From: Spirosoma fluviale
GTDB lineage: Bacteria; Bacteroidota; Bacteroidia; Cytophagales; Spirosomataceae
Assembly: GCA_945885545.1 (NCBI GenBank)
Contig: CAMCYZ010000010.1
Span: 1-38,551, forward strand
DNA: 38,551 bases
Reading direction: 5' to 3'
Positions 1,165 through 33,159 of the stretch are shown in pieces; position 1 is the stretch's first letter; every line of letters begins with the position of its first letter. The notes beneath the pieces were generated by a model that worked only from the letters and a program-made list of their open reading frames with translations, made no database searches and was not told the origin of the DNA. A program made the position numbers and the translations under genes.

Positions 1165-1512
1165 TTACTCTCCGTGAAGCCAAGCCTTTTTGGCTTGAAG
1201 TGTTTCGAGGTCTTCCACATTATCGGGGTCAGGTACACAACAGTCAACTGGACACACGGCCGCACATTGTGGTTCTTCGTGAAAACCTGTGCATTCCGTA
1301 CATTTATCACTTACTATATAATAAAACTCATCAGAAACAGGTTTCATGGTAGCCGCACCTTTAATAATGGTACCATCCCCAAAGTCAACTTCTGAGAGTT
1401 TTGTGCCACCTCCATAGGTCCACTCAATGCCGCCTTCATAAATAGCGGTATTGGGGCATTCGGGTTCACAAGCTCCACAGTTTATACATTCGTCCGTTAT
1501 AATAATTGCCAT
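1165..1512 (-). CDS. 2x[4Fe-4S] ferredoxin
   Basis: A 115-residue dicluster ferredoxin, an electron carrier in the cytoplasm. The first cluster motif is [12 protein letters not shown] near the N-terminus. The second is [22 protein letters not shown], in which the spacing between its second and third cysteines is widened to eight residues, as in the YfhL/Alvin-type ferredoxins. The start MAIIITDEC was chosen over a start 21 codons upstream for two reasons: it fits the family N-terminus exactly, and a -7 promoter element (1549-1556) lies downstream of the longer start. The gene diverges from an acyl-CoA reductase gene, a pairing I recall from other Bacteroidota, which suggests that it supplies or accepts electrons in a linked reaction (inference). 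A strong terminator follows it. Confidence 0.93.
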
Positions 1513-1548
1513 CGCGATTGAATTTCTTTTTGATTTCAAACTAAATAA

Positions 1549-1556
1549 CAAATATA
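1549..1556 (-). promoter_or_regulatory. -7 element (TATATTTG) before the ferredoxin gene
   Basis: TATATTTG on the minus strand fits TAnnTTTG. Transcription would begin near 1542, about 30 bases before the chosen start codon. No TTTG box at the ideal spacing was found. Confidence 0.4.
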
Positions 1557-1628
1557 ATTCTTCAAAGTTTAGCATCCTTTGTATTTTTACATTGATTTTA
1601 GAAAAGAGGTATTTTTTTATAAAAAAAA

Positions 1629-2660
1629 ATGAAATTAGAAGAAAGAATAGTACTATTTAGGGACTTAGGAAAATCGCTTAGTCAAAAAATAGAAACAGAG
1701 GAGTTTAATGAGCTCTTGGCCTTTGCTAAGTCAAAAAATAGCTGGTTTACGATAGATAATTTAAAAAAATCTATCCAGACAATCGTAGATAAATATTTAA
1801 ATGAAAGTGAGTTAAGAAATTTTGTAGCACTTTATCCTAAAGAATACTTCGAACCTAAAGAATCTAAAAAGGTGGGTATAGTTGCCGCTGGAAATATCCC
1901 GTTGGTGGGTTTTCAAGATATTATACACGTCATAATGACTGGCCACGTGGCAGTTTACAAAGCCAGTTCACAAGACGAAATCTTGATTCAATACATCCTT
2001 AAAGACTTAAAATCTATCAATCCTGATATTGAAAAGGCTTTAGTCTTGGCCGATAGACTAAACAACCTGGATGCCTACGTCGCTACCGGAAGCGGCAATA
2101 CTTCAAGATATTTTGATTATTATTTTGGCAGCAAGCCCAATATCATTCGTAAAAATAGAACTTCTGTGGCTGTTTTAACCGGTGAAGAAAACAAAATAGA
2201 GCTGTCTGACCTTGGCAACGACATTTTCTCCTATTTTGGACTAGGCTGCAGGAATATTGCCAAATTGTTTGTTCCCGAAGGTTATGACTTCACTCCTTTT
2301 TTTGAAGCCATTGAATATTGGAATACCATTTCGATGCACTCCAAATACAACAATAACTATGACTACATGAAGTCCATATATTTAGTAAATGGAGTTCAAC
2401 ATTTAGACAACGGCTTTTTGTTAATTAAAAATGACGAAAACCTGGCCTCTCCTATTTCTACGCTTTTCTACGAAAATTATACAGACTTGGACAGCCTTAG
2501 AAAAAGATTGGAATCTCAAAAGGAAGAAATTCAAGTAGTGGTTAGTAAATTGCCTATTACAGAAAATAGCTATCGTTTCGGAGATAGTCAGTCTCCAGGT
2601 TTAGCTGACTATGCTGACAATGTGGATACTATTAAGTTTTTAGCCACAATTGCACCTTAA
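1629..2660 (+). CDS. Acyl-CoA reductase (LuxC-like)
   Basis: A 343-residue protein of the acyl-CoA reductase / LuxC family, related to aldehyde dehydrogenases; members reduce acyl-CoA to aldehyde with NAD(P)[18 protein letters not shown] (82-98) and the GSGNTSRYF segment (154-162) look like the nucleotide-binding region. Cys207 in [15 protein letters not shown] is the expected nucleophile that forms the thioester. The length is shorter than LuxC (about 480) but usual for the Bacteroidota version. It is divergent from the ferredoxin gene across 116 bases, which may hold both promoters. The in vivo substrate is unknown: a fatty acyl-CoA is only one possibility. Confidence 0.82.
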
Positions 2661-2692
2661 CCTTCAAAGGGAAAAACATTAACATTATGCTT

Positions 2693-3496
2693 TTATTTTA
2701 AACTAAAAACCCATTCTAAGAAATCAGGAAAAGCGTTTTTCCATGTATTGAAGTTGTGTTCTCCTCCTTCAATTTCTACATATTCTATGTCGTTTTCGGT
2801 GTAGCCTTTGGTTTTAAGTTCTGTGATAATATCCAAAGTATCTTCTATTGAATCTATGATGCCGTTGTTATTCCTATCGGCAGTTTCGTCAGCAGTACCA
2901 CATTCAAGCCAAAACTTAAGTCCTGATTTATAATTAGAATTTCGGATTTTTTTGTGCATGATTCGGTCTAGGTCGTCTGTATAGCCTTCCTCATAACTTT
3001 TATCTCTCCACCAGAATGAACCGCTAAAAACTCCTACTTTCGAAAAAAGGTGGGGATTTTCCCACACTATGTCCATTGCGGATAATCCTCCAAGCGAAAA
3101 ACCACAAAAAATATTCTCAGAAGCTATTGATGAGCTGTCGGTTTCTTTTCTGATGTGCGGTAACAATTCAGAAACAACAAAATTCATATAATCCGTGGCC
3201 TTTTCTCCTCTTTTTTTATAGTCAGGCTGAAAAGCTGTTCCATATTCCGACAATCGCCTTTCGTTGGCGTGGATTCCTACGAAAATAAACGCTTGTCCGC
3301 CGCTTTGATAGTGATGGCCAATAGTTTTTAGAGCCTGCAATTGTTCGAAATCTTGCCCATCGTTCATGTAAATGGTTGGATAAAGCGTGTCTTTATCCAT
3401 ATTTCTTGGTAAAACAAGGTCAAAAATCACACTTCGATTCAGAAAAGCCGAATTAATGATTTTGTTTCTAAATACTTCAAATAGTTGCTCTTTCAA
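2693..3496 (-). CDS. Esterase (Fes/esterase D-like alpha/beta hydrolase)
   Basis: A 267-residue alpha/beta hydrolase of the enterochelin-esterase-like family, with no signal peptide, so probably cytoplasmic. The nucleophile elbow is GFSLGG with Ser134, the acid is probably Asp203 in CGTADE, and the histidine is His247 in EGGEHNFNTW. Directly after the acid lies DRNNNGIIDSIED, a textbook EF-hand-type loop (D207, N209, N211, G212, I214, D215, E218), so calcium binding is likely. The first in-frame start is TTG at 3494-3496, preceded by an in-frame stop two codons upstream; the next ATG (residue 33) would remove core strands. It diverges from a second esterase that heads the amidoligase operon and may belong to that pathway. 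The substrate is unknown. Confidence 0.8.
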   Translation of the reverse strand: MKEQLFEVFRNKIINSAFLNRSVIFDLVLPRNMDKDTLYPTIYMNDGQDFEQLQALKTIGHHYQSGGQAFIFVGIHANERRLSEYGTAFQPDYKKRGEKATDYMNFVVSELLPHIRKETDSSSIASENIFCGFSLGGLSAMDIVWENPHLFSKVGVFSGSFWWRDKSYEEGYTDDLDRIMHKKIRNSNYKSGLKFWLECGTADETADRNNNGIIDSIEDTLDIITELKTKGYTENDIEYVEIEGGEHNFNTWKNAFPDFLEWVFSLK

Positions 3497-3601
3497 ATTC
3501 TAGCATTTTGCTCATTTCTAAAAAAAAATGAATGTTTATTTTGATTAGTAGAAAATTATTGAGATTTTAATTTTTCAAACTAAATACAAATTTAAGAAAC
3601 A

Positions 3602-4315
3602 ATGCAAGAACGACATATAAATTTTTATTCCCATACAATTGGAAAGTCGCTCGATTTGTTTGTAACGGGCCATTGGGGTCAACCAATTTTGATGTTTCCG
3701 ACTTCGATGGGAAGTGCTCATCAAAACCGTGACATGGGCCTTTTGGGCAGTGTTCAAAATTATATAAATCATGGAAAAGTTAAAACTTACAATATTAGCA
3801 ACATTGATTTTGAAACTTTTTACGGAAAAAATATTTCACCACAAGACAGGGCCTACAACTATGAACTTTACACCAGATTTCTTGCTGATGAGCTCATACC
3901 CGAAATTCAGAAAGAAAATAGTGTCCATAGAATTGGTTTAGCGGGTTGTAGTTTTGGTGCCTATCACGCCATGAATCTGGCATTTAAGAAGCCCGATTTG
4001 GTAGATTTTGTAATAGGAATGAGCGGTTCTTATGATATTAGGACATTTATGGAGGGCTATTTTGACGACAATGTCTATTTTAATAATCCAGTGGATTATG
4101 TACCGAATGCCGAATCATGGACGTTTGACCACATGAAAGTCATTTTGGGCACCTCCGATTGGGATATTTGCAGAAACGAAACTTTTAGGTTTTCTCAAAT
4201 TTTGAATAATAAAAATGTAAACCATTGGTATGATGAAAAAAAATGGGCCAGTCACGATTGGCCACTTTGGAATCAGGCCTTCCCAGAATATTTATCAGCA
4301 ATACTTAATCACTAA
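3602..4315 (+). CDS. Esterase (alpha/beta hydrolase), first gene of amidoligase operon
   Basis: A 237-residue alpha/beta hydrolase without signal peptide. The nucleophile elbow GCSFGAYHA gives Ser117, His218 in WASHDWPLW is the likely base, and Asp186 or Asp188 in GTSDWD the acid. MFPTSMG early in the protein marks the strand before the oxyanion loop. It belongs to the putative esterase family that is often found beside ATP-grasp genes. The stop codon lies 4 bases before the start of the next gene, so the two are very probably co-translated. The role may be to release or trim an ester or amide product of the ligases downstream; that is inference. An A8 run in its coding region (the DEKKW segment) is read correctly. 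Confidence 0.82.
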   Translation: MQERHINFYSHTIGKSLDLFVTGHWGQPILMFPTSMGSAHQNRDMGLLGSVQNYINHGKVKTYNISNIDFETFYGKNISPQDRAYNYELYTRFLADELIPEIQKENSVHRIGLAGCSFGAYHAMNLAFKKPDLVDFVIGMSGSYDIRTFMEGYFDDNVYFNNPVDYVPNAESWTFDHMKVILGTSDWDICRNETFRFSQILNNKNVNHWYDEKKWASHDWPLWNQAFPEYLSAILNH

Positions 4316-4319
4316 CATC

Positions 4320-5330
4320 ATGAAAAAAATAGGAATATTATTTGGAATGGAAAATACATTTCCATGGGCATTTATAGATAGAGTAAATCAAAAAACGGGT
4401 GGCAGAAGAATTATTGCAGAACCTGTTTTGATTGACAAAGCCGAACAAGGCGTGGCATCGGAATATGCGGTAATTATTGACAGAATAAGTCAAGACGTGC
4501 CGTTTTATAGGTCTTTTCTGAAAAACGCGGCATTGTGTGGAACGGCGGTAATAAATAATCCATTTTGGTTTAGTGCCGACGAAAAATATTTCAACAATTG
4601 CTTGGCCGTAAAACTCGGTGTACCAGTTCCCAACACCGTCCTTTTGCCGTCAAAAGAAAAACCAGATGACACTGGAGATCAATCATTTAGAAACCTCAAA
4701 ATGCCTTTAGATTGGCAATATATGTTTGACAAGATTAAATTTCCGGCATATATGAAACCACACTCTGGCGGTGGTTGGAAAAGTGTTTACAGAGTTGATA
4801 ATGCTGATGATCTTTGGCAAAAACATGGTGAAACAGGTCAATTGGTGATGATGCTACAAGAAGAAATTGTTTTTACAGATTATTATAGATGTTATTGTAT
4901 TGGTGGCAAATATGTCCATGTAATGCCTTACGAACCACGTAATCCGCATCATTTGAGATATGCCACGCAGCCCAAAACTCAGGGTGAGGAACACAAAAAA
5001 CTGATGGCCACCATAACAGACTATGTTTTAAAACTAAACCAAGCTCTTGGCTATGATTTTAATACCGTGGAGTTTGCTGTTAGAGATGGAATTCCTTACG
5101 CCATAGATTTCTGCAATCCAGCACCAGATGCAGACGTAAACTCTGTGGGCCAAGAGAACTTTGAGTGGGTGGTTGAAAACGTGGCAAATTTTGCTATCGA
5201 GAAAGCCGAAACTCAGGTATTTGGTCAAAACAATTGTACTTGGGGTACATTTGTTATAAATTCAGCTGTACCGCACATTGAAACTCCAAAACCAAAGAAA
5301 ACCGAAACCATAAAGAAAACTAAGAAATAA
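4320..5330 (+). CDS. ATP-grasp carboxylate-amine ligase (RimK-like)
   Basis: A 336-residue ATP-grasp enzyme, which would form an acyl phosphate and then an amide bond. After an N-terminal pre-ATP-grasp domain (1-90) comes the ATP-binding lysine in FPAYMKPHSGGGWKS (Lys146 with its glycine-rich loop), the hinge region MMLQEEIVF (177-185), and the metal ligands Glu251, Asp263 and Asn266 in the NTVEF and AIDFCNPAPD segments. The C-terminus is a Lys/Thr/Pro-rich tail. The start at 4320 was preferred to an in-frame ATG at 4230 because the latter lies inside the esterase gene and adds 30 residues with no family resemblance. It overlaps the next gene by one base (TAATG). The substrates are unknown. 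Confidence 0.85.
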   Translation: MKKIGILFGMENTFPWAFIDRVNQKTGGRRIIAEPVLIDKAEQGVASEYAVIIDRISQDVPFYRSFLKNAALCGTAVINNPFWFSADEKYFNNCLAVKLGVPVPNTVLLPSKEKPDDTGDQSFRNLKMPLDWQYMFDKIKFPAYMKPHSGGGWKSVYRVDNADDLWQKHGETGQLVMMLQEEIVFTDYYRCYCIGGKYVHVMPYEPRNPHHLRYATQPKTQGEEHKKLMATITDYVLKLNQALGYDFNTVEFAVRDGIPYAIDFCNPAPDADVNSVGQENFEWVVENVANFAIEKAETQVFGQNNCTWGTFVINSAVPHIETPKPKKTETIKKTKK

Positions 5331-6427
5331 TGGGATTATTTACGCTTGGAATTGAGGAAGAATTCCAAACTATTGACCCTGAAACAAGAGAGCTGAAATC
5401 GCACATGTCAAAAATAGTTGAAGGAGGCAAAACTATTTTGCAGGAGCGTATCAAGCAAGAAATGCATCAGGCGGTTGTAGAAGTCGGAACCAATATTTGT
5501 GAAAATATTCAAGAAGCACGAGAAGAAGTTACTTATCTCAGGAAAATGCTCTTGGATTTGGCACAAAAGCAGAATCTGCATATTGCGGCCGCTGGCACTC
5601 ATCCATTTTCTGATTGGCAGCATCAGCTCATTACGGAGGATGACCGCTATGATAAGTTGATTGATGAAATGCGAGATGTGGCTCGTGGTAACTTGATCTT
5701 CGGTCTGCATGTGCATGTAGGCATAGAAGACCGCGACGATGCGATCAATATCATGAATCAGGCGAGATACTTTTTACCCCATATTTTTGCTTTGTCCGTA
5801 AATTCGCCATTTTGGCGTGGAAGAAATACTGGTTTTCATTCTTATCGTGCCAAGGTTTTTGATAAATTTCCTCGCACCGGCATTCCCGAGCATTTCAAAT
5901 CGGCAGCAGAATACGATTCCTACCTTAATTTACTTATTAAAACGGGCTGTATAGATAATGGAAAGAAGATTTGGTGGGATTTGAGACTTCATCCGTTTTT
6001 CCCTACAATAGAATTTCGAATCTGTGACGTTCCGATGCGGGTAGATGAGACCATTTGTTTAGCCGCCATTATGCAGGCCTTAATTGCCAAACTTTACAAA
6101 CTTCGGCAACAAAATCTTAGTTTTAGAACCTACCCAAGACATCTCATCAACGAAAACAAATGGCGATCTGGGCGGTATGGTATCAACTCGAAATTGATAG
6201 ACTTTGGAAAAGAATCAGAAGTGCCGTATGATGAACTGGTAGATGAGTTGTTAGATTTCATAAAAGACTCGGCAGAGGAATTGGGCTCTACGCAGGAAGT
6301 AAATTACGTACACCAGATACTAAAAAATGGAACTGGAGCAGACAGGCAGCTGAAAGTATTTGAAGAAACAAACGACTTAAATGCTGTGGTAGATTACATA
6401 GTAAATGAAACAAAATTCGGACTTTAA
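5330..6427 (+). CDS. Carboxylate-amine ligase, YbdK / GCS2 family
   Basis: A 365-residue member of the glutamate-cysteine ligase family 2, glutamine-synthetase fold. The start MGLFTLGIEEEFQTIDP is the diagnostic N-terminal motif, where the GIEEEF glutamates bind Mg-ATP. HVHVGIEDRD (126-135) and the FRICDVPMR segment are the other active-site blocks. Family members join a carboxylate, usually the gamma-carboxyl of glutamate, to an amine at the cost of ATP. It is the third gene of the operon, with its ATG sharing one base with the stop codon of the ATP-grasp gene; a 41-base gap follows. Two amide-forming enzymes side by side suggest stepwise assembly of a peptide-like metabolite. Confidence 0.9.
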   Translation: MGLFTLGIEEEFQTIDPETRELKSHMSKIVEGGKTILQERIKQEMHQAVVEVGTNICENIQEAREEVTYLRKMLLDLAQKQNLHIAAAGTHPFSDWQHQLITEDDRYDKLIDEMRDVARGNLIFGLHVHVGIEDRDDAINIMNQARYFLPHIFALSVNSPFWRGRNTGFHSYRAKVFDKFPRTGIPEHFKSAAEYDSYLNLLIKTGCIDNGKKIWWDLRLHPFFPTIEFRICDVPMRVDETICLAAIMQALIAKLYKLRQQNLSFRTYPRHLINENKWRSGRYGINSKLIDFGKESEVPYDELVDELLDFIKDSAEELGSTQEVNYVHQILKNGTGADRQLKVFEETNDLNAVVDYIVNETKFGL

Positions 6428-6468
6428 GAGTAATTTGACGAAATTTGCGATCATCTTCAAACAAACGT

Positions 6469-7299
6469 ATGTCAGATTTTAAAATAGCCATATTGGATAT
6501 GTATGACGACGCACCTAACGAAGGGATGCGTTGTATAAAAACGCTGGTCGAAGGTTTTCTTCAATCCAAAGGTATAGATGAATCAAGCTATTCAATATTT
6601 AATGTTAGAAAAGGAGTTCCATTGCCTTCAATCGCTAATTTTGACGCTTTTATATCAACTGGCGGACCCGGAAGCCCGATTTTAGAAAATATAGATTGGG
6701 AAAAGAACTATCTTCAACTTATTGAAGAGCTTTTGGAACATAATAAAAAGTCTGAAATAAAAAAGGAACTATTTGCCATTTGCCACTCATTTCAGTTGCT
6801 TTACCAATACTTTGAATTGGGAATTATTACCAAAAGGAAATCGACATCCTTCGGTGTTATGCCGATTCATAAACTTGAGCCCGCACTACACGAAAATGTA
6901 TTTTATGGCCTAGAAGAGCCGTTTTGGGCAGTGGATTCTCGTGATTTTCAAGCTATTATGCCAAATAAAAAGAGATTTAAAGAAATAGGGGCAAAAATTC
7001 TTTGTATTGAAAAAAACAGGCCGCACGTGCCTTTGGAAAGAGCGATAATGGCGATTAGATTTACGCCAGAGATAATAGGAACCCAGTTTCACCCTGAGGC
7101 CGATGCTGAAGGTATGCACCGGTACTTTAGAACTGAAGAAAAAAAACAAGCCGTGATAACCAATTTTGGCGAAAAAAAATACCACAGCATGATAGAACAC
7201 TTGGAAGATCCCGACAAAATTATGCTCACAGAATCTGTCATTTTACCCAACTTCTTGGAGCATGCCTTCCAGCAAAAATATGAAATCATTCTAAACTGA
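6469..7299 (+). CDS. Class I glutamine amidotransferase
   Basis: A 276-residue stand-alone GATase I domain. The nucleophile is Cys105 in FAICHSFQLL, and His208 and Glu210 in GTQFHPEAD complete the triad; STGGPGSP (63-70) forms the oxyanion loop. The triad is intact, so it should hydrolyse glutamine or a gamma-glutamyl amide, as PuuD-type enzymes do. About 60 residues after the HPE motif are specific to this protein. ATG 6469 was chosen over an upstream TTG at 6445 because MSDFKIAILDMYDD fits the first beta strand. The next gene follows after 4 bases. It may feed ammonia to a neighbour or remove a gamma-glutamyl protecting group; the context does not decide. Confidence 0.86.
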   Translation: MSDFKIAILDMYDDAPNEGMRCIKTLVEGFLQSKGIDESSYSIFNVRKGVPLPSIANFDAFISTGGPGSPILENIDWEKNYLQLIEELLEHNKKSEIKKELFAICHSFQLLYQYFELGIITKRKSTSFGVMPIHKLEPALHENVFYGLEEPFWAVDSRDFQAIMPNKKRFKEIGAKILCIEKNRPHVPLERAIMAIRFTPEIIGTQFHPEADAEGMHRYFRTEEKKQAVITNFGEKKYHSMIEHLEDPDKIMLTESVILPNFLEHAFQQKYEIILN

Positions 7300-7303
7300 A
7301 ACT

Positions 7304-8503
7304 ATGGTAAACAAGCCAAGACAATATTATAACGATTCTTTTTCAATTGAAAAATACAAAGCCATGTTGGCTGAGATTGAAAATGAATTTCCGAATACGC
7401 TAGATTTTCGCATAGCCGAATCACCAATATTTGTAAATAAAGAGCTTAAAATAAAGATTCTAAGTGCGTGTGGCTCCATCATCGATGAAATAAAGAAAGA
7501 AGGTTTCAAAGAAAAAACCAATCGAGCCATACCTGCAGAACATTTTGTGCCAAACGAAAACCAGAGGCCAGATTGCTTAGCAATAGATTTTGCGATTACA
7601 AAAAATGCCGAAGGCGAGTTTGAACCACAATTAATAGAACTACAAGGATTTCCTTCTTTGTTTGCCTATCAAAGTTATCTTTCTAGCAAATACAAAAAGC
7701 ATTTTAGTGTTCAAAAAGGATACAGCGAGTTTTTCAATAGATTGAATACCATGACCTACATGCAAGAAATGCAGCAGTTTTTTTTGAATGGAAGTCATCC
7801 GAAAAATACGATTTTGCTTGAGGTATTTCCAGAAAAACAAAAAACACGATTAGATTTTTCTTTAACGAAGAAGTTCTGGGGAATAGAACCTGTTTGCGTA
7901 ACGAAGCTACGTAAATCAGGTGAGGACCTGTATTATGAAAAAGACGGAAAGAAAATAACTATTGAAAGAATTTACAACAGATTGATTTTTGATGATTTAG
8001 ATAGAAATTTTTCAGACATAAAACTGGATGTAGATTTAAAAGAACCACATTCTGCCAAGTGGATTTCACATCCCAATTGGTTCTACAGAGTTTCGAAATT
8101 CAGTCTGCCATTATTCAAATCTAAGTATATACCAGAATCAAATTACTTATCTGAGTTTGTAAAAGCACCAGATGATTTGGAAAATTATGTATTAAAACCT
8201 CTTTTTTCTTTTGCCGGAGCAGGAGTTAAAATTGATGTAACCAAAGAAGACCTCGACAAAATCAAAGACCCTGAAAATTATCTCTTGCAAAGAAAAATAG
8301 CCTATGAGCCTTGCATAAAAGACTTGAATGGTGAAGGTGTAAAATGCGAGATAAGAATGCTTTACATTTGGCCCGAAAACGCAAGTCATCCTAAATTGGT
8401 TACTAATTTGGCACGTTTGAGCAGAGGAAAAATGATAGGTGTAGATTACAACAAAAACTTTGACTGGGTGGGTGGAAGTAGTGCTTTTTTTGAAACAAAT
8501 TGA
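7304..8503 (+). CDS. Diverged ATP-grasp-like ligase (glutathionylspermidine-synthase-like C-terminus)
   Basis: A 399-residue protein that I do not recognise as a named enzyme. The C-terminal third carries ATP-grasp hallmarks: ENYVLKPLFSFAGAGV with Lys298 and a glycine-rich loop (302-308), the LLQRKI hinge (327-332), CEIRMLYIW with Glu349 and Arg351, and VTNLARLSRG with Asn368. VLKP-LFS-x-G followed by a late N-x-x-x-x-SR motif resembles glutathionylspermidine-synthase-type ligases. The N-terminal two thirds, with the LIELQGFPSLFAYQSY segment, are a probable substrate domain. It is fifth in the operon, with 4- and 6-base gaps on either side, which binds it to the pathway. It is likely a second amide ligase with a different substrate from the first. 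Confidence 0.68.
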   Translation: MVNKPRQYYNDSFSIEKYKAMLAEIENEFPNTLDFRIAESPIFVNKELKIKILSACGSIIDEIKKEGFKEKTNRAIPAEHFVPNENQRPDCLAIDFAITKNAEGEFEPQLIELQGFPSLFAYQSYLSSKYKKHFSVQKGYSEFFNRLNTMTYMQEMQQFFLNGSHPKNTILLEVFPEKQKTRLDFSLTKKFWGIEPVCVTKLRKSGEDLYYEKDGKKITIERIYNRLIFDDLDRNFSDIKLDVDLKEPHSAKWISHPNWFYRVSKFSLPLFKSKYIPESNYLSEFVKAPDDLENYVLKPLFSFAGAGVKIDVTKEDLDKIKDPENYLLQRKIAYEPCIKDLNGEGVKCEIRMLYIWPENASHPKLVTNLARLSRGKMIGVDYNKNFDWVGGSSAFFETN

Positions 8504-8509
8504 TAATCA

Positions 8510-9697
8510 GTGGACAACAGACAGTTATTCCTAAATAATCTTGCTCAAACTTCAGACTTTCCATTGGCTTTAGAATTTACCTATGCCGAAGGAAGCTTTC
8601 TTTTTGATAAAAATAATAAAGCTTATCTGGACCTCATTTCCGGCATTTCAGTAAGCAATGTTGGGCATCGGCATCCGAAAGTTGTAAAAGCCATCAAAAA
8701 ACAAGTGGATTCTTACTTGCACCAGATGGTTTATGGCGAATATATACAAAGCCCGCAGGTTCAGCTTGCTCATGCTTTGGTAAAGACATTGGCTGGTTTT
8801 GGCACTTTGGCTGGTGAAGAGATAGACAATGTATACTTTACAAATTCTGGCACAGAAGCGGTCGAAGGTGCCTTGAAATTGGCCAAAAGATACACTAAAA
8901 AAAGTGAAATCATCGCTATCAAAAATTCTTATCATGGTTCTACGCATGGAGCATTATCTTTGGGAGAAGAGCACTTCAAAAGAGGTTTTAGGCCTCTGCT
9001 GCCGGGTATAAAAAAGATTGAAAGGAATAATTTAGAAGATTTAGAACTCATTACAAATCGAACAGCTTGTGTAATCATTGAGCCAATTGGAGCTGAAAGT
9101 GGGATTATTGAAACAGAACTTGTTTTCATGCAAAAACTGGCCAAAAGATGCCACGAGATGGGTTGTATTTTGATTTTTGATGAAATACAGACAGGTTTTG
9201 GACGCACTGGTACGTTTTGGGCTTTAGAACAATTTGGCTTTGCACCTGATATTTTACTTTCGGCAAAAGGTATGGGTGGCGGAATGCCCATAGGAGCATT
9301 TATGGCACCTCAAAAAATAATGGGCGTTTTGAAAGACAATCCAATCCTCGGTCATATTACCACCTTCGGCGGTCATCCGGTGAGTTGTGTGGCTTCTTTG
9401 GCTACGCTCCAGATAATTCAGGAGGAGATAAATTACATGGATCTGCTGCAAAAATCTGAAAGAATAAAATCCATTTTCTTGAAACATCCTTTAGTGAAAT
9501 CTATCAGAGGAAGAGGGTTTATGCTTGCTGCCGAATTTGAGAATTTTGAAATTCTCAAAAAGACTATTGACGGATTTATAGAAAATGGACTGATCACCGA
9601 TTGGTTTTTATATTGCGACAATGCCATGAGAATTTCCCCACCCCTAAATATCTCAAAAACTGAATTGGATTTAGTAGAACAAATTGTACTTAACTAA
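8510..9697 (+). CDS. Class III PLP aminotransferase (ornithine/acetylornithine type)
   Basis: A 395-residue class III aminotransferase. Key sites are TNSGTEAVEGALKLA (111-125, phosphate binding), LIFDEIQTGFGRTG with Asp224 (pyridine nitrogen), and LLSAKGMGGGMP with the PLP lysine Lys253. Such enzymes move the terminal amino group of omega-amino acids or diamines. The start is GTG at 8510, fixed by an in-frame stop 6 bases upstream and the lack of an ATG before conserved strands. It closes the six-gene operon and is followed by a hairpin. There are no arginine-biosynthesis genes nearby, so a role in making or using an amine for the neighbouring ligases is more likely than arginine synthesis (inference). 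Confidence 0.88.
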   Translation: MDNRQLFLNNLAQTSDFPLALEFTYAEGSFLFDKNNKAYLDLISGISVSNVGHRHPKVVKAIKKQVDSYLHQMVYGEYIQSPQVQLAHALVKTLAGFGTLAGEEIDNVYFTNSGTEAVEGALKLAKRYTKKSEIIAIKNSYHGSTHGALSLGEEHFKRGFRPLLPGIKKIERNNLEDLELITNRTACVIIEPIGAESGIIETELVFMQKLAKRCHEMGCILIFDEIQTGFGRTGTFWALEQFGFAPDILLSAKGMGGGMPIGAFMAPQKIMGVLKDNPILGHITTFGGHPVSCVASLATLQIIQEEINYMDLLQKSERIKSIFLKHPLVKSIRGRGFMLAAEFENFEILKKTIDGFIENGLITDWFLYCDNAMRISPPLNISKTELDLVEQIVLN

Positions 9698-9733
9698 AAA
9701 AGACCTTAAAGTTTTAACCTTAAAGCCTTTTTT
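9696..9733. terminator. Probable bidirectional terminator between convergent genes
   Basis: An imperfect stem with A6 on one side and T6 on the other, enclosing the near-repeat ACCTTAAAG. It lies in the 56 bases between the stops of the aminotransferase gene and of trxA, and could serve both strands. Confidence 0.5.
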
Positions 9734-9753
9734 ATCAATATTATACGATTAAA

Positions 9754-10077
9754 TTAGAGTGCTGCCTCAAGCTTTTGAGCCAAAACGTGTTTTGGCACTG
9801 CACCTACAATTTTATCTACCATTTCACCATTTTTAAAAATCATCAAAGTAGGTATAGAACGAATACCTAGACTTGACGGAGTAACACTATTTGCATCTAC
9901 GTCCATTTTGCCAACAATGGCTTTCTCTAAATATTCACCTGCCAATTCTTCTACAGTTGGTCCAATCATTTTACAAGGTCCACACCATTCTGCCCAAAAA
10001 TCAATCAAAACTGGCTTATCCGATTTTATTAATTCTTGAAAATTGGCATCATTAACTTCTATTGCATTCGCTCCCAT
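9754..10077 (-). CDS. trxA: Thioredoxin
   Basis: A 107-residue cytoplasmic thioredoxin, which reduces protein disulfides. The active site is WCGPC at 31-35, the cis-proline loop is RSIPTL, and FKNGEMVDKIVGA is the conserved C-terminal turn. Full length for the family, with no signal peptide. It stands alone on the minus strand, converging on the aminotransferase gene. Nothing unusual. Confidence 0.96.
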   Translation of the reverse strand: MGANAIEVNDANFQELIKSDKPVLIDFWAEWCGPCKMIGPTVEELAGEYLEKAIVGKMDVDANSVTPSSLGIRSIPTLMIFKNGEMVDKIVGAVPKHVLAQKLEAAL

Positions 10078-11245: not shown

Positions 11246-11647
11246 TTAACTTAAAAAAAAATGGCCATCTCTTAAAAAAATCAAGTTCTTCACGCTTTTA
11301 TTGTAGAAATAAGCATTGCATTTGACGGATTCTTTGTTACCGATCAGAAAACACTCCGTTAATTTTCTAATATAGAGTGAGTGAATTACATTTTCTGGAA
11401 AATAATCTTCGTATTCATCTAATTGCTCCAAAAGGTCGGTGTTATTTTCTATTCTAACAACTTCACCATAAACCTTATGATTTTCAAGAGCTGAATTTGA
11501 CACTAATGCAGGGTAATAATCGACCAAAAAAAGTTTTCCATAAGTGTAGGCCTCCCCAACATAGCTAGTATTTCTTTCCAAAAGTAACCTGAATGGATTT
11601 TCTGGAAAATTCCTCATTAAAGTGCCATAAAGAAAAAGATATTCCAT
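11246..11647 (-). CDS. Gamma-glutamylcyclotransferase-like (AIG2/GGACT) protein
   Basis: A 133-residue protein of the gamma-glutamylcyclotransferase fold. The opening LFLYGTLM is the YGTL substrate-binding loop, and LDEYEDYFPEN supplies the expected acidic catalytic residue (Glu80). Family members open gamma-glutamyl compounds to 5-oxoproline plus an amine. It is the last gene of the minus-strand group that begins with ispG, lying 4 bases after the YjbR-like gene. The presence of a gamma-glutamyl enzyme 1.5 kb from the amidoligase operon may be coincidence. The substrate is not known. Confidence 0.8.
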   Translation of the reverse strand: MEYLFLYGTLMRNFPENPFRLLLERNTSYVGEAYTYGKLFLVDYYPALVSNSALENHKVYGEVVRIENNTDLLEQLDEYEDYFPENVIHSLYIRKLTECFLIGNKESVKCNAYFYNKSVKNLIFLRDGHFFLS

Positions 11648-17822: not shown

Positions 17823-18242
17823 ATGATTTCTAAAAAAGCCAAATACGCACTGAAAGCACTCACCCGACTTGCTGATGGGTTTGAAGCTCATAAACCCTTG
17901 TTAATTAGCGAAATATCAGAAAAAGAAAATATTCCAAAGAAGTTTTTGGAGGCGATACTTCTTGAGCTGCGAAACAACGGAATTCTGCAAAGTCAGAAAG
18001 GGAAAGGAGGCGGCTATTTGCTTAGAATTCCTCCTGAAGAGGTGACACTCTCGAAAGTCATTAGAATAATTGATGGCCCCATTGCACCTGTATTGTGTGT
18101 ATCATTGAATTTCTATGGGAAATGTGACGACTGTAGCGACGAGGAGAAATGCAAAATAAGACCTGTTATGGCCAGAATTAGAGATGCCAATTTATCTGTT
18201 TACGACAATGTGACTTTAAAAGATATGCTGAATGACGTTTAA
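17823..18242 (+). CDS. Rrf2 family transcriptional regulator
   Basis: A 139-residue winged-helix regulator. The start MISKKAKYALKALTRLAD is the family signature, and GKGGGYLL (60-67) is the wing. Cys92, Cys101, Cys104 and Cys110 cluster in the region where IscR- and NsrR-type members hold an Fe-S cluster, so redox, iron or nitric-oxide sensing is possible. The stop codon overlaps the start of the aldehyde dehydrogenase gene by 11 bases, so the two are co-transcribed and the regulator probably controls its own operon. Its target genes cannot be read from the window. Confidence 0.9.
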   Translation: MISKKAKYALKALTRLADGFEAHKPLLISEISEKENIPKKFLEAILLELRNNGILQSQKGKGGGYLLRIPPEEVTLSKVIRIIDGPIAPVLCVSLNFYGKCDDCSDEEKCKIRPVMARIRDANLSVYDNVTLKDMLNDV

Positions 18243-19584
18243 AAGTATAAATCCTTCAAATGGTGAGGTTATAGCGAGTTTTGAGGAAGATGCAGATTAC
18301 GCTTTAAAGATAAGATTGGGAGAAAAGGCTTTCGGACGGTGGAAAAACACAGTAATTCAGGAAAGAATAAAGTTGATGCTGAATCTCGCTGAAATATTAG
18401 AAGCCCGAAAGGTAGAATTGGCGAAAGAAATAAGCCTAGAAATGGGCAAAACTTTGAAATCGGCCACTGCCGAAATAGAAAAATGTGCCATCACGGCGAT
18501 GTATTATTGCCAAATAGCGGAGGAACAACTGAGAAGTATAGAAGTCAGTAACTACGCTCAAAAGGCGTATTATAAATATGAACCGCAAGGTGGTATTCTG
18601 GCCGTAATGCCATGGAATTTCCCTTATTGGCAGGTACTTAGGTTTGCTATCCCGACTATATTGGCAGGAAACGTGGTTTTGCTAAAACATGCTCCGAACG
18701 TATTTATGTCGGCCTCGAAATTGGAAGAACTCTTCACCGAAGCTGGATTTGAGAAAGGTATTTTTCAAAATCTTTTTGTGGATATTGACAAAATAGAATC
18801 TATTCTGGCCGACCATTTCATCAAAGGCGTAACCTTGACCGGAAGCAATTTGGCGGGTTCGTCATTGGCTAGCTTGGCAGGTAAATATTTGAAAAAATCA
18901 GTTTTGGAACTGGGAGGATCTGATCCTTTTGTGGTATTGGCAGATGCAAATATCGAAAATGCCGCCACTTTTGCCATAAAGTCTCGTTTTCAAAATGCAG
19001 GACAAACTTGCATTGCAGCCAAAAGGTGGATTGTTGCAGAAGAGGTTTATAAGGAATTTCTAATTAATATTTCCGACAAAATAAACAAACTTAAAGCTGG
19101 TGATCCGTTTGATACAGAAACCGACTTTGGGCCAGTGGCAAGACTGGATTTGGCCGAAAAAATAGAAGGACAAATTAATTTTTTGGTAAAAAAAGGAGCA
19201 AAAAAACTAATTTCTGGTGAAAGGAAGGGTTGTTTAATTCCGGCAACACTTTTAGAAATAAGCAGGGAATTGAGTTATTCATTCACTGAGGAACTATTTG
19301 GACCTGTGGCTTGTATAATCAAAGCCAAGGACACCGCAGAAGCCATTGAAATAGCCAATGAGACCAGTTTTGGACTTGGAGCGAGCCTTTGGACACAAGA
19401 TTTAGAAAACGGAGAAAAGCTACTACAAAAACTCAATGCCGGCAATGTCTATCTCAACTCAATGGTAAAATCCGATGCTTCCATGCCATTTGGTGGCATT
19501 AATCAGTCGGGATATGGCCGTGAACTTGGCGTTTATGGGCTGCTTGAGTTCTGCAATGTAAAATCATATATTCTAGAAAAATAA
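18232..19584 (+). CDS. NAD(P)-dependent aldehyde dehydrogenase (succinate-semialdehyde type)
   Basis: A 450-residue aldehyde dehydrogenase. LAVMPWNFPYWQ (123-134) is the cofactor-binding WNFP block, VLELGGSDPF holds the general base Glu226, and FQNAGQTCIAAKR the nucleophile Cys260. ELFGPVACI is the C-terminal catalytic-tunnel motif. The length and the opening KSINPSNGEVIAS fit the short succinate-semialdehyde dehydrogenase (GabD/Sad-like) branch, though the substrate is not certain. Its start lies inside the end of the Rrf2 gene. Confidence 0.9.
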   Translation: MTFKSINPSNGEVIASFEEDADYALKIRLGEKAFGRWKNTVIQERIKLMLNLAEILEARKVELAKEISLEMGKTLKSATAEIEKCAITAMYYCQIAEEQLRSIEVSNYAQKAYYKYEPQGGILAVMPWNFPYWQVLRFAIPTILAGNVVLLKHAPNVFMSASKLEELFTEAGFEKGIFQNLFVDIDKIESILADHFIKGVTLTGSNLAGSSLASLAGKYLKKSVLELGGSDPFVVLADANIENAATFAIKSRFQNAGQTCIAAKRWIVAEEVYKEFLINISDKINKLKAGDPFDTETDFGPVARLDLAEKIEGQINFLVKKGAKKLISGERKGCLIPATLLEISRELSYSFTEELFGPVACIIKAKDTAEAIEIANETSFGLGASLWTQDLENGEKLLQKLNAGNVYLNSMVKSDASMPFGGINQSGYGRELGVYGLLEFCNVKSYILEK

Positions 19585-29140: not shown

Positions 29141-30181
29141 TTAAGAAAAATGGCTTTTTGCCTTTATCACTTTACCATTTCCTGGAGCTGTAGTTACCGA
29201 AAACACAAAACCGGGATTGACGGCATAAGCACCATATTCTCCATTTTTGTTCAATGCTATCAGCCCTACTTGAAAATCTCTGGCTTTTTTCGGATTAATT
29301 TTTACCAATCTGTCCACTGCCATTTTACAGGCCGCTTCAGGTGATTTGCCTTGTCGCATAAATTCTACCACCATGGCAGCTCCTGCTATCCGTATCACTT
29401 CTTCGCCTTGACCAGAACCTGTGCAGGCACCCACTTCGTTGTCCACATAAAGACCAGCTCCAATAATTGGAGAGTCGCCTACCCTACCTCGCATTTTGAA
29501 TCCCATCCCCGAGGTAGTACAAGCACCCGAAAGGTTTCCGGAATAATCCAAAGCCAGCAAGGCCATGGTGTCGTGGTTAAATTCACCGTTTTCCAACATC
29601 TGTGGTGCAAATGGGCCTTTGCCTTTTTGCATGGCTTTATTTTGCTCCAATTCTATGTTCTTAATGGGTTTATATTCCGATTTTTGAAGCCAATTTTTAT
29701 AAGCATTCTCGGCATCTTTGGATAGTTTGTCTTCTTCTACCTTAAAACCTTTTTCTATCGCAAACTGTCTTGCACCATCGCCTACCAAAAGCACGTGAGG
29801 CGTATCTTCCATCACTTTTCTAGCTACCGAAATGGGGTGCTTGATATTCTCCATGAATGCAACACCACCGCAATTCATTTTTTCGTCCATTATGCAGGCA
29901 TCTAGGGTCACTTTACCTTCCCTGTCGGGATTCCCGCCCAAGCCAACACAGCAGTTGATGGTATCTTCAATATTGTTCGCTCCTTTTTCAACGGCATCTA
30001 ATGCTCTACCATTTGGTTTTTTCAAAACCTCCATAGCGGCTTCGTTTACGGGTATTCCGCTATCCCAAGTAGAAATTACAATGGGCTTTTCCCTCACCAT
30101 TGGTGCTGCAAAACTCTTCGGAAATGACATTGTAACTATGCCTAATAGGCTTCTATTCAAGAACTTTCTTCTGTTATTCAT
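29141..30181 (-). CDS. Glycosylasparaginase (aspartylglucosaminidase), exported
   Basis: A 346-residue Ntn-hydrolase of the asparaginase-2 / glycosylasparaginase family, which cuts the link between N-acetylglucosamine and asparagine in glycoproteins. The N-terminus NNRRKFLNRSLL is a twin-arginine-like signal, so export is likely. The autocleavage site is FNHDTMALLALD with the catalytic Thr205; VGLGGNPDREGKVTLDA (79-95) and GDSPIIGAGLYVDNEVGA are further family blocks. It lies 6 bases after a sulfatase gene and two sulfatases share the operon, which fits degradation of sulfated glycoproteins. Confidence 0.9.
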   Translation of the reverse strand: MNNRRKFLNRSLLGIVTMSFPKSFAAPMVREKPIVISTWDSGIPVNEAAMEVLKKPNGRALDAVEKGANNIEDTINCCVGLGGNPDREGKVTLDACIMDEKMNCGGVAFMENIKHPISVARKVMEDTPHVLLVGDGARQFAIEKGFKVEEDKLSKDAENAYKNWLQKSEYKPIKNIELEQNKAMQKGKGPFAPQMLENGEFNHDTMALLALDYSGNLSGACTTSGMGFKMRGRVGDSPIIGAGLYVDNEVGACTGSGQGEEVIRIAGAAMVVEFMRQGKSPEAACKMAVDRLVKINPKKARDFQVGLIALNKNGEYGAYAVNPGFVFSVTTAPGNGKVIKAKSHFS

Positions 30182-30187
30182 GTTTAA

Positions 30188-31609
30188 TTAATTATCAATT
30201 CTACCAATTTCTCTTCTATTTTTTCCTTCTTTTTGCGTCAAAGCATCACCCAAATCTTCTCTTGCATTGTCCGCAATCTCGTTCAATTGTTTGGTAATTT
30301 CAGGATAATCAAACATTAGATTATACCTCTCGCCTGGGTCTCTTCTCAAATCATACAATCCTCCTGAAAAATTATGATTTTCATTGGCTCCTCCCGGCAT
30401 TCCGTCTTTTCCTGGTGAAAATCCTTCATAAGTTCTGCCGGGATGAGGAAATACTAATTTCCAATTTCCATACCTTACTGCCTCAAGATTATTTCTTCTG
30501 TAGTAATACAAAAAAGTTTCACGAGGCTCAGCATCTGTTTTACCATTTAATACTTCCATCAAACTTAGGCCATCTATTCTTCTTTTTGGCATTTTGGCAC
30601 CTGTAGCCTCAACTATCGTAGGCAAAATATCTATGGCTGAAGATAAACTACTACTCACCAATCCGCTAGGAATTTTTCCTTTCCAAGACATCAAACAAGG
30701 TACTTTTTGTCCTCCATCATACGTTGAGCCTTTTCCTTCTCTCAAGCCGCCTGTAGAGCCAGCGTGGTTGCCGTAATTAAACCACGGCCCGTTGTCGCTG
30801 GTAACTATCACCAAAGTATTATCATCTAATTTAAGTTTTTTCAATGTTTCTCTTACTTGGCCAAGGCTCCAATCTAGCTCCATTACTACATCTCCATAGA
30901 GGCCTTGTTTGGACTTCCCTTTAAATTTGGATGAAACTCCCAAAGGTACATGGGGCATTGGATGAGCCAAATAAACAAAAAATGGTTTATCTTTTTTTCT
31001 AGTAATAAAATCAAGGGCTTTCTCTGTAAACCAGGTCGTAAACTGGGTATTATCAGGATTGGTTTCTATGGTTTCATCATTTTTAATCAAAGGTAAAGCT
31101 GGATAATAATTCTTTGTTACAGGATGATTGGGCCACATATCATGAGAATATGGGATACCAAAAAATTCATCGAAACCGTGGTTTCTAGGAAGGAATTTGG
31201 GTACATGACCTAAATGCCATTTTCCGAAAGCTGCTGTTTCATATCCTTGGTCCTTCAATAATTCAGCGATGGTTTCTTCGTCGGGATTTAAACCAATTTT
31301 GGCTGTATGGTCTATGGCTCCGCTAAAACCCAATCTATTTGGGTAGCAACCCGTTAAAAGTCCGGCCCTTGAAGCAGTACAAACTGCCTGCGGGGAGTAA
31401 AACTGCGTGAAAGAGATGCCCTCAGCTGCCATTTGGTCAAAATTTGGCGTGGTGTAACCCTGTGCTCCATATCTTGCAATATCTCCATAGCCCATGTCGT
31501 CTATATAAATCAGAACTATATTGGGTTTATCAACTTTAGATTTTTTAAAACTCATTGCTAAAACCCCAAAAAGTGCTATTGCTAGAACTAGAAAATGTTT
31601 GTTTTTCAT
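30188..31609 (-). CDS. Secreted type I sulfatase
   Basis: A 473-residue sulfatase. The signal peptide is at 1-20. The metal-binding start is IVLIYIDDMGYGD with Asp38 and Asp39. The formylglycine site is Cys77 in CTASRAGLLTG, matching C-x-[PA]-x-R, so it must be matured by a formylglycine-generating enzyme encoded elsewhere. GKWHLGHVP and TSDNGPW carry other catalytic residues. It would remove sulfate groups from sugars outside the cytoplasm. Its start overlaps the stop of the preceding sulfatase by 4 bases and the asparaginase gene follows after 6 bases, so all three are one operon. The substrate is unknown. Confidence 0.92.
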   Translation of the reverse strand: MKNKHFLVLAIALFGVLAMSFKKSKVDKPNIVLIYIDDMGYGDIARYGAQGYTTPNFDQMAAEGISFTQFYSPQAVCTASRAGLLTGCYPNRLGFSGAIDHTAKIGLNPDEETIAELLKDQGYETAAFGKWHLGHVPKFLPRNHGFDEFFGIPYSHDMWPNHPVTKNYYPALPLIKNDETIETNPDNTQFTTWFTEKALDFITRKKDKPFFVYLAHPMPHVPLGVSSKFKGKSKQGLYGDVVMELDWSLGQVRETLKKLKLDDNTLVIVTSDNGPWFNYGNHAGSTGGLREGKGSTYDGGQKVPCLMSWKGKIPSGLVSSSLSSAIDILPTIVEATGAKMPKRRIDGLSLMEVLNGKTDAEPRETFLYYYRRNNLEAVRYGNWKLVFPHPGRTYEGFSPGKDGMPGGANENHNFSGGLYDLRRDPGERYNLMFDYPEITKQLNEIADNAREDLGDALTQKEGKNRREIGRIDN

Positions 31610-33159
31610 ATTTCAATTCCGTTTTCTTTTAAAATATTTTTTATTTCAGGTTGATTATCAAAGTCTTGGTAAAACTCTTTTTGGTTTATTAATTCCTTTT
31701 TTAAAATCTCAATTCTCTTTTTGTATTTCTTGTTCGAGATTAAGTTATTGTTCTCCTTCGGGTCATTTTTTAAATCATAAAATTCCCAACCTGGAGGATA
31801 TTTCATTTTACTTCGCTCTGTATCAAGTCTATTTTGACCGTAAAACAAAACTAATTTATATCTGTCTGTTCTAATACCCAAATGTGCCGGACGTTCAGGT
31901 TCATTACTCCAATATCTATAATAAATAGTTTTCCTCCAATTTTCTGTGCTAGAATCCTTCAAATTTTCTCTAAAACTTTTGCCTTGAAAATTCTCTGGAG
32001 CCTTTATTCCTGCAAAATCCAAAAATGTTGAAGCAAAATCAATATTCATAATTAAATCAAAATTGCTGCTGCCTGCTTTTATTTCTTTTGGATATGAAAT
32101 AACAAATGGCATTCTGAGCGATTCTTCATAAATAAATCTTTTATCAAAGAAACCATGTTCACCCAAAAAATAGCCTTGGTCGCTGGTATAAACTACAATG
32201 GTGTTTTCGGTTAGATTATTTTGGTCTAAATAATCTAAAATCTTACCGATGTTTTCATCAATAGTTGCTGCTGCCCGCAAATAATCTTTAAGAAATTCTT
32301 GATAAATTTTTATCCGAGATTCCTCTTGATTTAATCCAGATAAATTAAATTTTTCTCCAGGATAAGAATCTCCTTTTGATTTTTCGTATCGTTTTCCCAA
32401 AATTTCTAAGGGCCATCCATCATGGGTTCTTCCAGAATTTGCAGCAGAAAAATCCATTAAATTTTGAGGAATTGGTAAAACATCATCTTTTAAAAAGTCC
32501 CTTTGTCTTTCGGGATAATCAAAAGGCTCATGCGTAGCTTTAAATTGCGTACATAGAAAAAACGGTTTTGATTTATCTCTCTTGTCTAACCATTCTAAAG
32601 ACATCTCCGTAATTGCATCATCACAGTATCCTTTGATAACTTTTTCACCTTCTTTTTCAAGACTATATTCACCTTTTTTTATCATTAAAGGGTTGTGATA
32701 CCTGCCTTGTCCTGGCAATATGGTGTAATCCCCAAAACCCATAGGCTCTGCATTAAGATGCCATTTGCCGAAAAGAGCCGTTTTATAGCCATTTTCTTGT
32801 AATTTTATGGCTACTGTTACTTTTTCAGTCTCAAGTGAGCCACTTAAATCATAAACATTGTTTTTATGGCTCATTTCACCGGTGAGAATAGAAGCTCGGC
32901 TTGGCGTGCAGATTGAATTGGTGCAAAAAACATTTTGGAGCAAAGCCCCATTTTTCGCCAAACGCTTTATATTATCGTTTTTTACATAGTCTTTCAAAAT
33001 TCCGCCGTATAAGCCCCATGCTTGGGAAGTATGATCGTCAGACAAAATGAAAAGTATATTGGGCTTTTTTTGACCAAAAACACCCATATTTATTAAATAA
33101 AGTAAAATGAAATACTTGAATTTTAATTTCTCAAATTCTAGAAAGTTTATTGCTTTCAT
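31606..33159 (-). CDS. Secreted type I sulfatase, second copy
   Basis: A 517-residue sulfatase, only distantly like its neighbour. The signal peptide runs to about residue 29 (YLINMGVFG), the metal site opens with NILFILSDDHTSQAWG, and the formylglycine cysteine is Cys84 in CTPSRASILTG. GKWHLNAEP and YTSDQGYFLGEHG are the remaining catalytic blocks; the EHGFFDKRFIYEESLRMPF stretch is typical of the iduronate-sulfatase-like and mucin-active groups. It is the first gene of the operon, preceded by about 140 bases of very AT-rich DNA without a clear promoter. It should act in the periplasm or outside the cell on sulfated glycans. Confidence 0.92.
   Translation of the reverse strand: MKAINFLEFEKLKFKYFILLYLINMGVFGQKKPNILFILSDDHTSQAWGLYGGILKDYVKNDNIKRLAKNGALLQNVFCTNSICTPSRASILTGEMSHKNNVYDLSGSLETEKVTVAIKLQENGYKTALFGKWHLNAEPMGFGDYTILPGQGRYHNPLMIKKGEYSLEKEGEKVIKGYCDDAITEMSLEWLDKRDKSKPFFLCTQFKATHEPFDYPERQRDFLKDDVLPIPQNLMDFSAANSGRTHDGWPLEILGKRYEKSKGDSYPGEKFNLSGLNQEESRIKIYQEFLKDYLRAAATIDENIGKILDYLDQNNLTENTIVVYTSDQGYFLGEHGFFDKRFIYEESLRMPFVISYPKEIKAGSSNFDLIMNIDFASTFLDFAGIKAPENFQGKSFRENLKDSSTENWRKTIYYRYWSNEPERPAHLGIRTDRYKLVLFYGQNRLDTERSKMKYPPGWEFYDLKNDPKENNNLISNKKYKKRIEILKKELINQKEFYQDFDNQPEIKNILKENGIEI

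Follow-up and report, generated by a model that had tools for sequence, protein, structure and literature searches.

Gene content and layout of the locus

The window, by which we mean the whole stretch of 38,551 nt from Spirosoma fluviale that was analysed (contig CAMCYZ010000010.1, forward strand), contains at 3602-9697 a row of six plus-strand open reading frames (ORFs), here named genes A to F, and at 2693-3496 a divergent esterase gene on the minus strand, named estX. This report is concerned with genes A to E, which recur in whole or in part across Bacteroidota, and with the small-molecule pathway that they may encode. A preliminary description of the sequence had reported the six-gene row, its intergenic gaps and the divergent esterase gene, and all of these were confirmed, with gaps of 4, −1, 41, 4 and 6 bases between successive genes when D is taken to start at 6469. 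The features are as follows.

estX, 2693..3496, minus strand: alpha/beta-hydrolase (PF00756, 93.9 bits), facing away from A to F
Gene A, 3602..4315, plus strand: alpha/beta-hydrolase (PF00756) with a GxSxG motif
Gene B, 4320..5330, plus strand: predicted ATP-grasp ligase of RimK fold
Gene C, 5330..6427, plus strand: YbdK/GCS2 carboxylate-amine ligase
Gene D, 6445..7299, plus strand: class I glutamine amidotransferase (GATase) fold (PF00117), start at 6445 (TTG) or 6469 (ATG)
Gene E, 7304..8503, plus strand: predicted ATP-grasp ligase of glutathione synthetase (GSS)/GspS/YgiC fold, without a Pfam or NCBIfam match
Gene F, 8510..9697, plus strand: class III aminotransferase (PF00202), found at the operon only in the family of the window

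The longest ORF of B begins at 4230, and the start at 4320 fits the Lacihabitans orthologues. As the preliminary description had stated, no transporter or regulator family was matched by a Pfam scan of the genes at 2693-10077, in which neither B nor E gave any Pfam hit. No plus-strand terminator-like site was found at 3602-9697 in a scan whose totals lay near the shuffle level (7 versus 5.6 expected).

Genes B, C and E co-occur in Bacteroidota genomes

Strong matches were sought in 198 Bacteroidota genomes and were obtained for E in 60 (about 30% of the sampled species genomes), B in 70, C in 56 and D in 50. Dropped before counting were one E row, a 25-residue fragment in G047; the B rows of G007 and G087 (238-240 bits) and of G047, G053, G176 and G180 (<30 bits); the divergent C rows of G004, G022, G104, G112, G123 and G167 (303-493 bits), with which C would be present in 62 genomes; and the weak D rows of G050, G127, G133, G167 and G188. 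E was found in every one of the 56 genomes with a strong C, and B in 58 of the 60 E-positive genomes. The genome patterns were BCDE (34), BCE (20), BD (11), BDE (4), CDE (1), CE (1) and B alone (1).

The preliminary description had raised the question of whether the same genes stand unlinked in most relatives; judged by eye from the match positions, C and E were linked in 34 of the 56 genomes and unlinked, on different contigs or far apart, in the other 22. Linkage therefore does not account for the co-occurrence. To take kinship into account, the comparison was repeated within the 11 families that were mixed for E: the distribution of C equalled that of E in 10, the exception being family f8, which has E without C, and the distribution of B equalled it in 9. 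The within-family chances for the co-occurrence of C and E gave a product of 1.1e-13. No homologue of B or E was detected in 72,556 plasmid records at an E-value of 1e-5.

Linkage of genes A to E

To describe gene linkage we used 60 stretches that had been fetched because they carry E, so that the counts refer to a non-random sample: 20 of the 21 named loci, L051 being omitted for a partial E at a contig end, and 40 stretches fetched from among the 59 other E-positive genomes. Gene presence was scored by tblastn. All of A-B-C-D-E lay in one stretch in 19 of the 60 loci (10/20 named and 9/40 other loci, four of the 19 being from Lacihabitans, whose named loci match the E of the window at 78-92%), and the gene order recurs in other Bacteroidota. 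B-C-D-E without A was found in 4 loci, B-C-E without D in 12 (7 of them with A), B-D-E without C in 3 (2 of them with A), C-D-E in 1 and D-E alone in 11; for 8 of the 12 genomes with a B-C-E stretch that lacks D, D was located elsewhere in the genome. With A to E joined in 19 of the 60 loci and co-occurring across the 198 genomes, this gene set is not a product of chance.

The divergent esterase gene estX was present in 17 of the 60 loci, and it also adjoins B-C in four further stretches (L101-L104), from genomes in which E lies elsewhere. The interpretation given in the preliminary description holds in part; the evolutionary unit is A to E, often with a divergent estX and with F outside the core.

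Predicted folds and conserved residues of the three ligases

E gave no Pfam or NCBIfam match at an E-value of 0.001. Its AlphaFold model (a prediction; pLDDT 93.8, pTM 0.92, model range 1-398) was searched with Foldseek, and every one of the 33 matches at an E-value of at most 0.001 was a glutathione synthetase or relative, a putative glutathionylspermidine synthase, YgiC/YjfC or Cp1B. In structural alignments made with VIA-align, E matched YjfC at Z 25.7 (root-mean-square deviation 3.7, 342 aligned residues), YgiC at 25.4, GspS at 24.5, human GSS at 23.2 and Cp1B at 21.6, while a putative gamma-glutamylcysteine synthetase reached Z 12.7, and LysX and other RimK/LysX-type ATP-grasps 8.7 or lower; structure searches do not list every fold, and absence from them is no proof. 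A search of solved structures by sequence alone yielded a weak YgiC match (E-value 0.18, or 0.033 with a profile), and the profile-profile comparison with YgiC/YjfC/Gss aligned 59 columns at 73% probability. On the evidence of its model, the entire chain of E adopts the glutathione synthetase/GspS/YgiC fold, which bears out the earlier assignment of E as a GSS-like ATP-grasp.

In a sequence alignment of these very distant proteins, Asp95, Glu112, Lys298 and Gly305 of E match YgiC/YjfC/Gss and are invariant in 48/48 E sequences. The Arg of the Arg-x-Asp motif, two residues before Asp95, is lost in all 48 (A in 19, Q in 15, V in 10, T in 3 and C in 1; a low-identity alignment), the Asn of the Glu-x-Asn motif is Gln114 in 48/48 in the same very distant alignment, and the loop after Gln114 (the ADTP loop) is shorter than in YgiC/YjfC/Gss. 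With the ATP-site residues kept and the Arg lost, the Asn replaced and the loop shortened, E probably works like the ligases of the GSS fold, but with a different substrate side. E is therefore like E. coli YgiC/YjfC, glutathionylspermidine synthetase and the eukaryotic-type GSS in its whole-length fold (Z about 19-26) and in the Lys, Asp and Glu of the ATP site, and unlike them, apart from the substrate-side changes, in identity (7-14% in structural alignments) and in its gene neighbours, which differ from those of YgiC/YjfC/Gss genes. It would thus add to the glutathione synthetase fold a family whose residues on the substrate side are different. Cp1B, which has the same fold as YgiC/YjfC, is described in a passage of a published article as joining a dicarboxylic acid and an amino acid (PMC12568646). 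Two loci place E beside a transporter: a sodium:solute symporter is fused in frame with E behind it in G125 (L069:7637-10240), and in G133 (L133) such a symporter is encoded directly next to E.

B matched no Pfam family and gave a weak match to the RimK-family model TIGR00768 (28.9 bits, against a cut-off of 143.4); its fold is nonetheless similar. The B model (pLDDT 86.9) aligned with RimK at Z 22.8 over 259 residues with 14% identity and with ArgX/LysX at Z 20-21, followed by other ATP-grasp families at Z 18-19, and Lys146, Glu251, Asp263 and Asn266 were invariant in 28/28 sequences. Modelling thus characterizes B as an ATP-grasp ligase of RimK fold, which resembles RimK/LysX/ArgX in its predicted fold (Z 20-23) and ATP-grasp metal-site residues and departs from the RimK family in its low model score. 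In a small-genome relative of family f23 (L120:4703-7185), the gene directly after B encodes a histidine/aromatic ammonia-lyase (PF00221, 654 bits).

C scored above the curated cut-offs of PF04107 (212.9 bits; cut-off 21) and NF010039 (558.8 bits; cut-off 371), and its profile matched the solved structure of E. coli YbdK (1r8g) at an E-value of 7e-66 over profile positions 4-338 of 369. It is accordingly homologous to YbdK over most of its length, and differs in the association of its gene with E, B and D; the literature searched yielded no characterised substrate for the branch of C. Mean pairwise identity over 14 five-gene loci (the 17 loci with all five ORFs called, minus three near-identical Lacihabitans loci) was 66% for B, 64% for C, 49% for D, 49% for A and 48% for E, values that mark B and C as the constrained pair.

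Gene D and the esterases

D matched PF00117 with 38 bits (cut-off 22.8), its sole Pfam match at an E-value of 0.001, and the triad Cys113-His216-Glu218 was kept in 33/33 sequences. The typical nucleophile elbow of class I GATases reads G-x-C-x-G-x-Q; that of D is C-H/Y-S-F/Y-Q (CHSFQ type), with Ser115 replacing Gly in 33/33. Two relatives whose genomes are without D carry another gene in its place: in L067 (G093) an M29-type metallopeptidase ORF stands between C and E, and in L086 (G055) the position of D is taken by an ORF of the same cluster, the L067 protein alone having been scanned. Replacement of D by a gene of a peptidase cluster makes a hydrolase more likely than a glutaminase, and we read D as a probable thiol hydrolase.

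In A, Ser117 and His218 were each kept in 18/20 sequences and Asp188 in 20/20, and these are the putative catalytic residues. Homologues of A were found in 14 plasmid records, of which four were examined: in two the homologue adjoins an ATP-grasp_4 gene from a different subfamily, in a third it has no such neighbour, and the fourth record is unannotated. Outside Bacteroidota, in Peptoclostridium and Pararhizobium, genes for distant A-type esterases form pairs with a gene for an ATP-grasp_4 ligase (L092:3788-5753; L093:3825-5753), and such pairs could possibly represent a second ligase/esterase system.

Gene F

F matched PF00202. Of the 25 NCBIfam models listed for it, none was matched at or above its cut-off, the best being an argD subfamily at 322 of 410 bits. 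Strong relatives of F were present in 86 of the 198 genomes, in 27/60 E-positive versus 59/138 E-negative ones (Fisher p 0.88). F follows E in all nine genomes of the window's genus that have a strong F, and the tenth (G199, 77% complete) has no strong F. Elsewhere in the window's family F comes after E in G207, G208 and G209, with gaps of about 0.3, 1.4 and <0.1 kb, and lies about 5 kb from E in G190. In the other families of the order, F had no system gene in its stretch in 6/6 loci (E was sought in these stretches and not in the rest of those genomes), and F at the operon was seen in the window's family only. Having no association with E and standing alone in these six loci, F was rejected as a core gene; most probably a general aminotransferase gene became attached to the row in the window's family, where its presence is probably incidental.

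A candidate pathway for a small amide-linked metabolite

We favour, with moderate confidence, the reading that A to E, often together with estX, form a biosynthetic module that assembles a small amide-linked metabolite without a ribosome or a nonribosomal peptide synthetase. In the likeliest scheme, a small molecule of gamma-glutamyl or peptide-like nature is put together by three ATP-dependent ligases and trimmed by D and the esterases. C, of the YbdK type, would join the side-chain carboxylate of glutamate to an amine or amino acid; E, with its GSS/GspS fold, and B, with its RimK fold, would each use ATP to turn a carboxylate into an acyl phosphate and attach one more amine or amino acid to it; D, through its Cys-His-Glu triad, would take off a gamma-glutamyl or other acyl group in a trimming or deprotection step; and A and estX, as serine hydrolases, would cleave an ester or amide in the substrate or the product. 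This reading builds on the set of genes, the folds predicted for B and E, the retained ATP-site residues, the conserved triad and the co-occurrence of the genes even when unlinked, from which we infer the substrates, the order of the steps and the action of D as a hydrolase. The preliminary description had proposed a single pathway in which three families of amide-forming enzymes are linked with a GATase-like enzyme and esterases, and this is supported. Three of its details found no support: F as a pathway member, given its distribution; D as PuuD-type, its only Pfam match being PF00117 and its elbow CHSFQ; and estX as an outsider, since it recurs beside the system.

Operons for peptide metabolites that combine ATP-grasp and GS-fold ligases are an already known kind; a survey by Iyer and co-workers from 2009 reportedly treats amidoligase operons in which such ligases stand with peptidases, and the operon in the window is of that general kind. 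Iyer et al. (2008; PMC2588565) describe another ligase family of GCS2 size whose genes adjoin a GATase-like thiol peptidase or an Aig2 gamma-glutamyl cyclotransferase, and read the association as peptide metabolite synthesis. The window operon is similar in pairing a GS-fold ligase with a GATase-like hydrolase, and the system described there differs in its ligase family and in its occurrence in proteobacteria and firmicutes, the word "ATP-grasp" being absent from the main text (PMC2588565). A search of titles and abstract beginnings in the open literature found no publication on the present operon.

Several observations weigh against a single biosynthetic module. C is absent from 4/60 E-positive genomes, those of family f8, and D from 21/60, so neither is indispensable in all lineages; when the six divergent C matches are counted, E accompanies C in 56/62 genomes; and E is solitary, with no other system gene in the stretch, in 10/60 loci. 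In 11 genomes from families f17, f20, f24, f28 and f30, B and D are present while E and a strong C are both missing. Five of these 11 were inspected and the middle gene was scanned in one (L097), where a 471-aa circularly permuted ATP-grasp (PF14403, 37.3 bits) lies between B and D and a PF00756 esterase gene comes after D; L096 has a 474-aa ORF in the same place between B and D and again a PF00756 esterase gene after D. The permuted ATP-grasp in that one scanned locus suggests that the product may vary. As for D, its sole profile match among solved structures was homoserine O-succinyltransferase (1.4e-4), and D may yet prove to be an acyltransferase or a glutaminase. The module is a proposal drawn from genes, sequences and predicted folds.

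Among other explanations, peptidyl- or gamma-glutamyl-polyamine metabolism would be a special case of the proposed module or its reverse, with C gamma-glutamylating, E joining a polyamine to the carboxylate of a peptide in the manner of YgiC/YjfC, and D reversing the reaction. The highest-Z folds for E are indeed those of YjfC and YgiC (with GspS about 1 Z lower), which carry the annotation peptide--spermidine ligase and are referred to as peptidylpolyamine synthetases by a passage of PMC12568646, and nspC, for carboxynorspermidine decarboxylase, scored above its cut-off in the window's own genome. We nevertheless judge this explanation unlikely, since the Arg two before the Asp in YgiC, YjfC and Gss is A, Q, V, T or C in 48/48 E sequences and the ADTP loop is shortened (in a low-identity alignment), and nspC, which stands for the one polyamine route examined, was over the cut-off in only 9/198 genomes, five of them E-positive, leaving 55/60 E-positive genomes without a match. 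At 9/198, nspC was set aside as an uninformative polyamine marker. A glutathione-type low-molecular-weight thiol, in which C makes gamma-Glu-Cys and E or B adds the third residue, would suit the YbdK-like C and the GSS fold of E, and the window's own genome yielded no gene of GshF type (TIGR01435). BshC of bacillithiol synthesis, however, is present in 196/198 genomes, the window's own included, so that nearly all of them already have a thiol route and a thiol replacing bacillithiol allows no contrast. E also lacks the Arg found at position 93 in YgiC, YjfC and Gss, whose equivalent in human GSS binds the gamma-Glu-Cys carboxylate, and we regard thiol synthesis as improbable.

Protein or peptide tagging, in which B would modify a protein or a ribosomally made precursor peptide in the manner of RimK, is an explanation to which we likewise give a low probability: it would suit the RimK fold of B and the strong conservation of B (66% versus 48% for E, n=14 loci), as expected with a fixed macromolecular partner, C being nearly as conserved (64%), but little room is left for a precursor gene, the gaps being −1 to 41 bases and the distance to estX 105 bases (ORFs of at least 80 aa were considered, in the operon only), and B co-occurs with C and E. 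Characterised relatives of C and E make small amides or peptide amides. The combination of a GCS2-type ligase, a GATase-fold enzyme and a class III aminotransferase also resembles PuuA, PuuD and PuuE, and a catabolic or salvage module of Puu kind, using gamma-glutamyl ligation for amine uptake and breakdown with F as the transaminase, would further accord with the symporter fused to E in L069 and abutting it in L133. The Puu pathway has a PuuB oxidase and a PuuC dehydrogenase alongside the ligase, hydrolase and transaminase, whereas no amine oxidase or aldehyde dehydrogenase was found among the genes at 1165-10077, the stretch searched; the aldehyde dehydrogenase gene at 18232-19584 is not linked to the operon. 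Because F does not track E, and two extra ATP-consuming ligases are hard to explain in catabolism, such a module is scarcely probable.

The preferred reading, of a biosynthetic module, can be extended tentatively, at odds that we put somewhat below even. B, C and E might define a pathway, so far undescribed and spread across Bacteroidota, to a conserved small molecule (cofactor-like, an osmolyte or a signal). In this pathway the strongly conserved B and C would make the head and E would add a more variable part, with deprotection by a GATase-fold peptidase or a metallopeptidase; E would then represent a functional class new to the glutathione synthetase fold. No known product was found for these genes. 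If the pathway makes one conserved compound, that would be an unrecognised metabolite in a common environmental phylum, with the B-C-E triad as direct targets in the search for it.

Variants and neighbouring genes

A gene of an amidohydrolase_3 cluster precedes E in three genomes of families f23 and f26 (scanned in L090; the same cluster in L089 and L091) and also occurs near D in L064. After E, four Chitinophagaceae-like loci (L036:11360-12358, L039, L049 and L054) encode a 322-337-aa protein of one cluster with a weak CHAD match below the cut-off. Neighbours of E or B that stood beside them in one or two loci only were set aside, namely MiaE, beta-helix, M90, M42, tRNA synthetase, class I/II aminotransferase, Fic, ScpB, GFO/IDH, Phenol_MetA_deg, DUF3078, aromatic lyase and AMP-binding genes.

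A YfhL-type ferredoxin gene, mostly with a facing LuxC-like acyl-CoA reductase gene, lies near the system in distant families: at 1165-2660 in the window and in L105, L038, L041, L046, L047, L050 and L089-L091. These genes are about 3-9 kb away in Chitinophaga and directly upstream of the amidohydrolase-E pair in L089-L091. An AIG2-like gamma-glutamyl cyclotransferase gene (PF06094, 66 bits) lies at 11246-11647 on the minus strand, 1.5 kb past F, and among the loci examined such a gene near the operon was seen in close relatives of the window only. Further along the window, two sulfatase genes and an asparaginase_2 gene stand in a row at 29141-33159, and together with a SusD gene at 36909 they look like a glycan-use locus.

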